From: Bacteroidaceae bacterium
GTDB taxonomy: Bacteria > Bacteroidota > Bacteroidia > Bacteroidales > Bacteroidaceae
Length of the DNA: 64,000 nucleotides
Reading direction: 5' to 3'
Assembly (NCBI GenBank): GCA_017546785.1
Contig: JAFYRW010000042.1
Span: 124,001-188,000, forward strand
Each line of letters opens with the position of its first letter. The stretch's first letter is position 1. The notes below the pieces were generated by a model. That model was not told the origin of the DNA. It saw nothing but the letters and a program-made list of their open reading frames with translations, and searched no databases. This document shows positions 38,683-57,801 of the stretch, one piece after another. Position numbers and translations under genes: made by a program.

Positions 38683-38781
38683 ATGCTGTTATTTTTTTAA
38701 TGCGCAAATGCCGCATAATAAGACATTTACCTATTTGCGAAAAATATTTTTGAACTTTTTGCAAAAAAATGTCTCAAAAAT

Positions 38782-38812
38782 TTTGGAGAATTTGAAAAAA
38801 GCAGTACCTTTG
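38782..38812 (+). promoter_or_regulatory. Promoter of the tRNA cluster
   Basis: TTTG (38782-38785), 19 bp, TACCTTTG (38805-38812). Transcription should start near 38819, leaving a 70-base leader before the first tRNA-like unit. Confidence 0.8.
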
Positions 38813-38888
38813 CACTCGTCAAAAGAACAACGCCTCTGAATTATTAGAGAATGATTCTAAAAAAGGCTGTTCAAATTGAAACAAAAAT

Positions 38889-38987
38889 GCGGAAATAGCT
38901 CAGTTGGTAGAGCACAACCTTGCCGCAAAAAGAAAAGGTTTCCAACCTTGGCAAGGAATCTACTCAATGGGATATTAACGCAAAAAT
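38889..38987 (+). pseudogene. tRNA-Gly 5' half joined to a hairpin (unit A)
   Basis: Positions 38889-38924 repeat the first 36 bases of the tRNA-Gly at 38988 exactly, from acceptor strand through D arm to the anticodon GCC, and stop there. The following 63 bases are not tRNA. They contain CCAACCTTGGCAAGG (38942-38956), the reverse complement of the tRNA-Gly anticodon arm. The transcript can fold CCTTGCC with GGCAAGG, an inner AAGGTT/AACCTT stem, and an outer GTAGA/TCTAC stem. No T arm or 3' acceptor is present, so it cannot be a working tRNA. Confidence 0.8.
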
Positions 38988-39060
38988 GCGGAAATAGCTC
39001 AGTTGGTAGAGCACAACCTTGCCAAGGTTGGGGTCGCGAGTTCGAGCCTCGTTTTCCGCT
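38988..39060 (+). tRNA. tRNA-Gly(GCC), first copy
   Basis: Acceptor GCGGAAA pairs with TTTCCGC (39053-39059), discriminator T. Anticodon GCC is at 39021-39023 in a CAACC/GGTTG stem, and the T loop is GTTCGAGC. No CCA is encoded. Identical in sequence to the copy at 39410. Confidence 0.95.
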
Positions 39061-39096
39061 CAATCAAACAACGCAGAATCGATGTGTTTAACAAAT

Positions 39097-39177
39097 GCCC
39101 AGGTGGCGGAATGGTAGACGCGCTCGTTTCAGGTGCGAGTGTTGAGAGACGTGCAGGTTCGAGTCCTGTTCTGGGCA
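39097..39177 (+). tRNA. tRNA-Leu(CAG)
   Basis: Acceptor GCCCAG pairs with CTGGGC, anticodon CAG at 39130-39132, long variable arm (TGTTGAGAGACG), T loop GTTCGAGTC. Only CC follows the discriminator A, not a full CCA. Confidence 0.93.
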
Positions 39178-39203
39178 CCGGTGCTGCGCGATTTTTTGGG
39201 AAT

Positions 39204-39290
39204 GGAGAAGTGGCGGAATTGGTAGACGCGCTACTTTGAGGGGGTAGTGGCCGTTGGGTCGTGTGAGTTCGAGTCTCATCTTCTTCACCA
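39204..39290 (+). tRNA. tRNA-Leu(GAG)
   Basis: Acceptor GGAGAAG pairs with CTTCTTC (one G-U). Anticodon GAG at 39238-39240, long variable arm, T loop GTTCGAGTC, and an encoded CCA at 39288-39290, the only complete one among the tRNAs here. Confidence 0.93.
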
Positions 39291-39309
39291 AAGAAAAAAA
39301 TACCAAAAC

Positions 39310-39409
39310 GCGGAAATAGCTCTGTTGGTAGAGTACAGCCTTGCCGCAAAAAGAAAAGGTTTCCAACCTTGGCAAGGAGTCTACTGAATGGAATATCAAC
39401 GCAAAAAAC
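39310..39409 (+). pseudogene. tRNA-Gly 5' half joined to a hairpin (unit B)
   Basis: A second copy of the same unit, 100 bp before the second tRNA-Gly. The half-tRNA (39310-39345) differs from the functional gene at three positions (in CTCTG, GAGTAC, CAGCC). The hairpin part is kept without change from 39346 to 39377, including the antisense anticodon arm at 39363-39377. The later spacer differs at a few bases from unit A. The tRNA part thus drifts faster than the hairpin. Confidence 0.8.
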
Positions 39410-39482
39410 GCGGAAATAGCTCAGTTGGTAGAGCACAACCTTGCCAAGGTTGGGGTCGCGAGTTCGAGCCTCGTTTTCCGCT
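39410..39482 (+). tRNA. tRNA-Gly(GCC), second copy
   Basis: Same sequence as 38988-39060, anticodon at 39443-39445. It is the last gene of the cluster, with a terminator 5 bp further on. Confidence 0.95.
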
Positions 39483-39486
39483 CTAG

Positions 39487-39512
39487 AAGGCAGTCTGATG
39501 ACTGCCTTTTTT
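39487..39512 (+). terminator. Terminator of the tRNA cluster
   Basis: AAGGCAGTC (39487-39495), loop TGAT, GACTGCCTT (39500-39508) and a T run. Confidence 0.9.
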
Positions 39513-39543
39513 GTTATATATTGCATTCTTGCTCTCTTTGCAG

Positions 39544-57557: not shown

Positions 57558-57589
57558 TTGCCTTTGTTTGGATAATTGTTGTATATTTG
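57558..57589 (+). promoter_or_regulatory. Promoter of the nrdDG operon
   Basis: TTG (57558-57560), 21 bp, TATATTTG (57582-57589). Expected transcription start near 57596, exactly where the riboswitch P1 stem begins. Confidence 0.75.
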
Positions 57590-57593
57590 CATA

Positions 57594-57765
57594 GTGATGG
57601 TTCCGCCTGTGCCTCTTCTGCGTGGGTGGTGAATAGGGAATCGGGTGAAAATCCCGGACAGTCCCGCTGCTGTGAATCTCCTGTGACGTCTTATAACTCT
57701 TGGCCACTGAGTGTAATCTTGGGAAGGCAATAGACCGAGGATTAAGTCAGAATACCTGCCATCGG
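57594..57765 (+). ncRNA. Cobalamin riboswitch aptamer
   Basis: The conserved B12-box parts occur in order: GGGAATCGGGTGAAAATCCC, then GGACAGTCCCGCTGCTGTGA, GCCACTGAG, GGGAAGGC and AAGTCAGAATACCTGCC. GATGG (57596-57600) can pair with CCATC (57759-57763) as the closing P1 stem. It senses adenosylcobalamin or a related form in the 5' leader of nrdDG. Confidence 0.95.
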
Positions 57766-57774
57766 CTTTTAAAT

Positions 57775-57801
57775 TGTTCTTACTCGTGGGTTAGAAGAAC
57801 A
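57775..57801 (+). promoter_or_regulatory. Probable riboswitch expression-platform hairpin
   Basis: TGTTCTT (57775-57781) pairs with AAGAACA (57795-57801). The loop has GTGGG, which could pair with CCCGC in the aptamer, like the known kissing-loop contact. A short T-rich stretch (CTTTTGTTT) follows. The start codon is 28 bp downstream, so control may be on translation or on termination; sequence alone does not decide. Confidence 0.55.

Follow-up and report, generated by a model that had tools for sequence, protein, structure and literature searches.

Antisense copies of the anticodon arm in the leaders of tRNA-Gly(GCC) genes of Bacteroidales: a probable tRNA-pairing element

Both tRNA-Gly(GCC) genes in a 64,000-nucleotide stretch of a Bacteroidaceae genome, referred to here as the window, are preceded by a partial copy of the same tRNA together with an antisense of its anticodon arm. 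The question raised by this locus is whether such an arrangement is the debris of a duplication or an RNA element retained for pairing with tRNA-Gly. The repeated unit, situated 5' of each of the two genes, comprises a segment S1 corresponding to tRNA nucleotides 1-36, an A-rich linker, an antisense segment A of 14-15 nucleotides that is the reverse complement of tRNA nucleotides 30-43/44, and a variable tail.

The two units belong to a tRNA cluster on the forward strand that is ordered as promoter, unit A, tRNA-Gly(GCC), tRNA-Leu(CAG), tRNA-Leu(GAG), unit B, tRNA-Gly(GCC) and terminator. A Bacteroidota-type promoter is recognised from the sequence at 38781-38812 (TTTTGG ... TAccTTTG, the latter at 38805-38812). 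S1 of unit A (38889-38924) ends with the anticodon triplet GCC and matches tRNA nucleotides 1-36, at 38988-39023, with 100% identity. The linker of unit A (38925-38941) has an A-rich insert of 10 nucleotides followed by AAGGTT, equivalent to tRNA nucleotides 37-42, so that the window units contain the anticodon arm in sense orientation, interrupted behind the anticodon by about 10 nucleotides; AAGGTT can pair with A in a predicted AAGGTT/AACCTT hairpin. It is followed by A (38942-38956, antisense to tRNA nucleotides 30-44, that is the anticodon loop and the 3' strand of the stem), by a tail (38957-38987) and by the first tRNA-Gly(GCC) gene (38988-39061), also referred to as S2. The genes of tRNA-Leu(CAG) and tRNA-Leu(GAG) are located at 39097-39179 and 39204-39290. 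In unit B, S1 (39310-39345) differs from the tRNA by three changes (A14T, C25T and A29G), the linker (39346-39362) and A (39363-39377) are identical to those of unit A, and the tail (39378-39409) has diverged from that of unit A. The second tRNA-Gly(GCC) gene, likewise S2 (39410-39483), is followed by an intrinsic terminator closing the cluster (AAGGCAGTC-tgat-GACTGCCTT and a T run, 39487-39512). All four tRNA genes are assigned by both ARAGORN and Rfam, the two tRNA-Gly genes to the family RF00005. The Rfam scan of the window has also identified a full-length cobalamin riboswitch at 57581-57777 (106 bits).

The first-pass annotation of this locus had described half-tRNA copies that stop after the anticodon, and the coordinates bear this out, the copies starting 99 and 100 bp ahead of their tRNA genes. 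It had also placed a reverse complement of the anticodon arm in the spacer and a long hairpin in the transcript, and both are recovered. The sequence CCAACCTTGGCAAGG, present in both units, forms a 15/15 inverted repeat with CCTTGCCAAGGTTGG, which is found in both tRNAs, and the unit hairpin is much more stable than shuffled sequences (z = -4.6 and -3.3 for the two units, with none of the shuffles equally stable). Its further statement that the 32 nucleotides up to the end of the antisense (17 of linker, then A) are identical between units in spite of the three changes in the half of unit B agrees with the comparison given above; the tails, of 31-32 nucleotides, differ between the two units.

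How such a unit may have arisen is suggested by the remainder of the spacer. In the predicted fold the tail of unit A pairs with the 5' half, and in the window the entire spacer looks like the 5' half of the tRNA in reverse complement. The tail is a decayed reverse complement of the D-arm and acceptor strand, and the block reads as sense, antisense and sense. Since this is the order that replication template switching leaves behind, the unit probably originated in such a switch at the anticodon arm, which is nearly palindromic. A stem between tail and D-arm is evident on folding in the window and in some species; as a conserved stem it was rejected, since RNAalifold applied to 82 diverse units retains only the D-hairpin and CCTTGCC/GGCAAGG.

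The first-pass annotation had already raised a template-switch scar, later copied with the gene. These features also lend themselves to a fuller form of that reading, in which the unit is a functionless scar, multiplied by unequal crossing-over, with A kept in agreement with the tRNA by repeated template switching at the DNA level or by gene conversion. The spacer as a whole and the perfect inverted repeat are what a reverse-complement copy of adjoining sequence would give, S1 is near-identical to the local tRNA, and the arrays are tandem. Template switching is able to create and maintain RNA hairpins (PMC8794818). We regard the scar as unlikely to be the whole account, on the evidence from the conservation of A presented below.

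In the current analysis 44 genomes of the genus were considered, and no fewer than 18 besides that of the window carry the unit upstream of tRNA-Gly, sometimes in tandem; about half of the genus is without a detected unit. When 84,980 species genomes were scanned by pattern, at least 119 loci were revealed, with 150 units among the matches listed. Over the genus and these loci the unit is present in one to six copies. Titles were obtained for 80 of these at least 119 loci and all are from Bacteroidales or Bacteroidota. The taxa bearing the unit among the matches listed include Petrimonas, Proteiniphilum, Fermentimonas, Tannerella forsythia ATCC 43037, Odoribacter laneus, Alistipes, Paludibacter, Mediterranea and Azobacteroides, so that Bacteroidales of the gut as well as of the environment are represented. 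Three units each are present in Odoribacter laneus YIT 12061 and in Petrimonas sp. IBARAKI. A tRNA-Gly gene follows on the same strand within 600 nucleotides for 123 of the 150 units among these matches, and the other 27 are followed by a contig end, an N gap, or a tandem array reaching one. None of the 150 is situated away from tRNA-Gly; wherever the contig continues, the units in the matches listed lie upstream of tRNA-Gly(GCC) and the tRNA that follows is intact. The recurrence of the unit across the order at one and the same place shows that the inverted match is not due to chance. Among the tRNA genes of the examined loci, which include most tRNAs of the window genome, antisense of this kind is seen only at tRNA-Gly(GCC).

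Searched with a strict pattern, a sample of 392 genomes covering the order gave 6 with the unit, and a sample of about 386 from the rest of the phylum gave none. When A was left out of the pattern, the unit was detected in 32 of 101 genomes of one family, in 8 of 100 of another, and in the window's own family in 9 true cases among 151 genomes, after removal of three matches to an unrelated GAGAACTTGCC sequence. As many draft contigs end inside units, the sampled frequencies are undercounts. The patchy distribution indicates that the unit is dispensable. In one genome (G245, loci L192 and L261) six or more units stand in arrays that are divided between two contigs, and the draft contigs of many genomes end in unit repeats, owing to which tRNA-Gly loci are often absent from assemblies.

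Tandem copies and patchy occurrence could also be expected of a mobile or site-specific recombination feature, such as a non-autonomous repeat or an integrase attachment site in the anticodon loop, and anticodon arms of tRNAs are known to serve as integrase sites. Such a feature would hardly be confined to tRNA-Gly as are the units among the matches listed, and the unit is absent from 2.9 million viral contigs. Moreover, the duplicated part is the 5' part of the tRNA, not the usual 3' part, and the spacer is too short for cargo. This explanation is without support here and is considered very improbable.

The position of the unit relative to the promoter suggests that it is transcribed. Of 103 loci that could be compared, 94 have the element TAnnTTTG in the 150 nucleotides preceding their first unit, where random windows would give 10.5; the median distance is about 40 nucleotides. 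With a promoter ahead of it the unit would head the pre-tRNA, and it is very likely, judging from this arrangement, a leader transcribed together with the tRNA. The unit hairpin is not followed by a U run in the window, where the only terminator seen is the one after the last tRNA; the leader has neither a terminator nor any other obvious output element.

Other structured or partial copies are found near tRNA-Gly in the relatives. A second long palindromic element (GCGGAATTTTCGTGCCAGCGAGTGGGAAAGTTTACTTTCACGCAACGAGCGCAGCCGAAAATGCC...) is located between the promoter and tRNA-Gly in many relatives of the genus (L047, L050, L052-L058, L063 and L069), sometimes between unit and tRNA, and is possibly another structured leader. 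Decayed copies of tRNA-Gly occur in L044, L058 and L061, downstream of the cluster terminator, and at positions 260-372 of L057. They consist of a 5' half, an A-rich linker like that of the unit and a well-kept 3' half, with an unrelated hairpin of 24-39 nucleotides inserted at position 36/37. Shorter 5' fragments of the tRNA (GCGGAAGTAGCG... and GCGAGAATAGCTCAGTTGGTAGAGCACAAAC) directly precede the gene or the unit in L071, L115, L129, L138 and L145, which suggests that the leader repeatedly acquires partial tRNA copies.

The evidence that distinguishes an element under selection from debris comes from the conservation of the segments. Among 40 units from three other families, collected by S1 alone with A not required, the mean pairwise identity is 92% for S1, 88% for A, 52% for the linker and 28% for the tail. 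By this measure the tail is saturated with substitutions and A is not, in keeping with the earlier opinion that the unit is not plain debris. In the samples gathered by S1 only, A is present in every unit in which the A region is readable. A functionless scar should decay evenly, and gene conversion acting to preserve A should have renewed the tail as well; template switching is thus a good account of the origin that leaves the match of A to the tRNA, beside a saturated tail, unexplained. Nor does it explain why the unit is limited to tRNA-Gly(GCC) and lies on the upstream, transcribed side of this gene.

The partner to which A is matched can be read from tRNA nucleotides 40-43, which were not required by the search pattern. 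Of 340 cells compared at these positions, 334 are Watson-Crick pairs, 5 are G-U pairs and 1 is a mismatch, so that 339 of 340 can pair. The anticodon stem of the tRNA is of the CAACC, CGACC or TAACC type depending on the lineage, and in each case A agrees with the 3' strand of the tRNA that accompanies it. The stem type switches inside single families and genera and A switches along with it. Genome G904 carries two stem types, each A fitting its own downstream tRNA, a single case for which contamination is possible. As S1 is without nucleotides 37-43, the match at nucleotides 40-43 cannot stem from the unit hairpin alone, and on these comparisons the main conserved partner of A is the intact tRNA. 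The first-pass annotation had spoken of retention of the hairpin; the conservation of A stands, and the half, from which nucleotides 37-43 are absent, is replaced by the intact tRNA as the chief partner. It had also named absence from all close relatives, lack of covariation and lack of a stable RNA as the joint outcome that would reduce the unit to a recent scar, and on the first two the opposite has been found, the unit occurring in relatives with A tracking the tRNA.

Where S1 and the tRNA disagree, A agrees with the tRNA (L079, L103, L122, L128, L129, L166 and others). Concerted evolution of S1 and tRNA was considered as the whole story and rejected, since S1 is not identical to the tRNA in L086, L103, L129 and others, and A sides with the tRNA in L103, L129 and others having differences in the arm. 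In the genus Tannerella (L091 and L269) the downstream tRNA-Gly has the anticodon TCC while S1 and A still carry GCC and GGC, which may represent a recent mutation, an error or a real UCC tRNA.

The substitutions within A are of a kind tolerated by RNA pairing. In the core of A (11 nucleotides, opposite tRNA nucleotides 31-41) all 9 of 9 substitutions in the sample drawn independently of A are G-U compatible (two in L230 and one each in L235, L249, L254, L255, L267, L270 and L290); those of L267 and L270 may share ancestry, the counts ignoring kinship. By our own estimate, with a 2:1 excess of transitions, the chance of a G-U-compatible change is about 0.36 per change, as 6 of the 11 core positions can form G-U by a transition. 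DNA copying has no preference for such changes, which argues further against a scar, and we take the pattern as RNA-pairing-like, supportive and not a proof. Two mismatches are found in the core among all units seen (L049 and the second array copy in L154), and a few more true mismatches occur at the edge positions 42-43 (L124, L132 and L192). Taken over these comparisons, it is likely that A has been selected for pairing with tRNA-Gly.

The consequences of such pairing have been explored by folding. In the minimum energy folds of unit-plus-tRNA precursors, A is placed on the anticodon arm of the tRNA in 93 of 93 cases, and these folds lie on average 10.9 kcal/mol below the separate unit and tRNA; in the window precursor the acceptor strand of S1 additionally joins the 3' end of the tRNA. 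When prefixes of growing length are folded, A is on S1 in 98% of the shorter lengths and is handed over to the tRNA once 37-43 nucleotides of the tRNA are present, again in 93 of 93. These are equilibrium folds that leave aside kinetics, tRNA modification, tertiary structure and protein, and a perfect 15-bp duplex wins in such a model regardless of its purpose.

The sequence and folding data are best read as showing a leader whose RNA is under selection for pairing with tRNA-Gly and which is built in the manner of an attenuator, with S1:A and A:tRNA as the competing states. The tRNA promoter would give a transcript in which a structured leader precedes tRNA-Gly(GCC). S1 would be made first, and its nucleotides 30-36 (CCTTGCC) would pair with A (GGCAAGG) and keep A off the tRNA. 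As the real anticodon arm is transcribed, A:tRNA pairing would compete, A being fully complementary to tRNA nucleotides 30-43. In the S1:A state the tRNA would be free to fold and mature; the A:tRNA state would open the anticodon stem, the acceptor strand of S1 would then lie on the 3' end of the tRNA, and the precursor would be trapped. In attenuator terms S1 would be the protector, A the switch strand and the tRNA the target, and the balance of the two states would set the amount of mature tRNA-Gly, in the way that 1:2 against 2:3 pairing works in attenuators. Presence, position, promoter, conservation, co-variation of A with the tRNA and tolerance of G-U are read from the sequence, and the two folds and the hand-over are predicted. 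A cis switch of tRNA-Gly maturation is put forward tentatively as the purpose of the unit and as the best single mechanism. The patchy distribution, the few mismatched copies of A, the TCC anticodon downstream of the Tannerella units and the lack of a terminator in the leader speak against it. Of the interpretations offered in the first-pass annotation, an RNA pairing with tRNA-Gly or an attenuation element in the precursor fits best, with the correction that the half is not the main partner of A.

The same pairing evidence would serve an RNA acting in trans. Cleavage by RNase P at the 5' end of the tRNA would release an S1-A RNA of about 100 nucleotides, which might bind mature tRNA-Gly, or fragments of it, at the anticodon arm and function as a sponge, a brake on glycine decoding or a buffer against anticodon nucleases. 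The predicted binding gain of the unit averages -12.8 kcal/mol for tRNA-Gly, compared with -0.9 for a tRNA-Leu taken as control, so that in these models a trans role is thermodynamically as open as a cis role, and tandem copies would increase the dosage. A free small RNA gene could, however, be located anywhere, whereas no unit among the matches listed lies away from tRNA-Gly; the fit of each A to its own downstream tRNA in G904, subject to the reservation made for that genome, also speaks against action in trans, and a folded, modified tRNA is hard to invade. Action in trans is accordingly regarded as a possibility of rather low probability.

The geometry of A admits a further role. A spans exactly 7 nucleotides on each side of the 36/37 junction, at which S1 ends, so that S1 paired to GGCAAGG leaves CNACCTT free. 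This free strand would capture the 3' fragment (nucleotides 37-76) of a tRNA-Gly cut in the anticodon loop, next to a fresh 5' half, and S1 and A would form a repair kit that either splints the break for an RNA ligase or senses cleaved tRNA. We consider this very improbable. A tRNA intron, with S1 spliced to the downstream 3' half, was rejected, as the locus has an intact tRNA and the predicted fold locks tRNA nucleotides 37-44 in the long hairpin.

The preferred leader reading may be compared with the known systems that share some of its features. A 5' half cut beside the anticodon, with an adjoining pairing sequence, also occurs in the split and permuted tRNA genes found in archaea and algae (PMC3218864). 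The unit differs in that a complete tRNA gene follows it and there is no separate 3' half. Bacteria, moreover, are not known to possess the splicing endonuclease. Template-switch hairpins carry a reverse-complement copy beside its source (PMC8794818), whereas the unit keeps only part of the inverted copy, shows G-U-compatible changes and has its partner outside the hairpin. Searches of 38800-39530 against Rfam, at the gathering threshold and at relaxed ones, gave the tRNAs and chance matches alone. The RtT RNA (RF00391) of the E. coli tyrT operon is made up of tandem repeats that carry the 3' end of the tRNA, lie downstream and are released by processing. The units similarly form tandem repeats in a tRNA operon, each with a part of the tRNA, but carry the 5' part and lie upstream, and RtT lacks an anticodon-arm antisense; the window locus gave no Rfam match to RtT at either threshold. 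T-box riboswitches (RF00230) are also RNA leaders contacting the anticodon of a specific tRNA, and A has the glycine codon GGC opposite GCC. T-boxes are situated upstream of mRNA genes, read only the codon triplet and the 3' end of the tRNA, and possess a stem I and an antiterminator; no match to the T-box covariance model, with its stem I and UGGN bulge, was found over 38800-39530 at the gathering threshold or at E<=5.

In its predicted folds the unit works like the attenuator leaders of the trp and his operons, in which 1:2 and 2:3 pairings are mutually exclusive. Both have three segments of which the middle one is complementary to both neighbours, with the fold set by which pairing forms first, and mutually exclusive pairing of the middle segment is seen in the predicted folds of 93 of 93 unit and tRNA pairs. 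The unit differs in having no leader peptide and no terminator, and segment 3 is the tRNA itself, so that the output would presumably be tRNA folding or processing. A search of open-licence papers on leaders of tRNA-Gly, RNAs antisense to tRNAs, RtT and the small RNAs of Bacteroides yielded no matching description, and a tRNA gene carrying in its own leader a 5'-half decoy together with an antisense to its anticodon arm is, to our knowledge, undescribed. If the pairing is real in cells, a single tRNA species would be controlled via its own folding, in an order dominant in the human gut. The occurrence of the unit in cultured strains of Odoribacter laneus, Petrimonas and Tannerella forsythia makes this directly testable.
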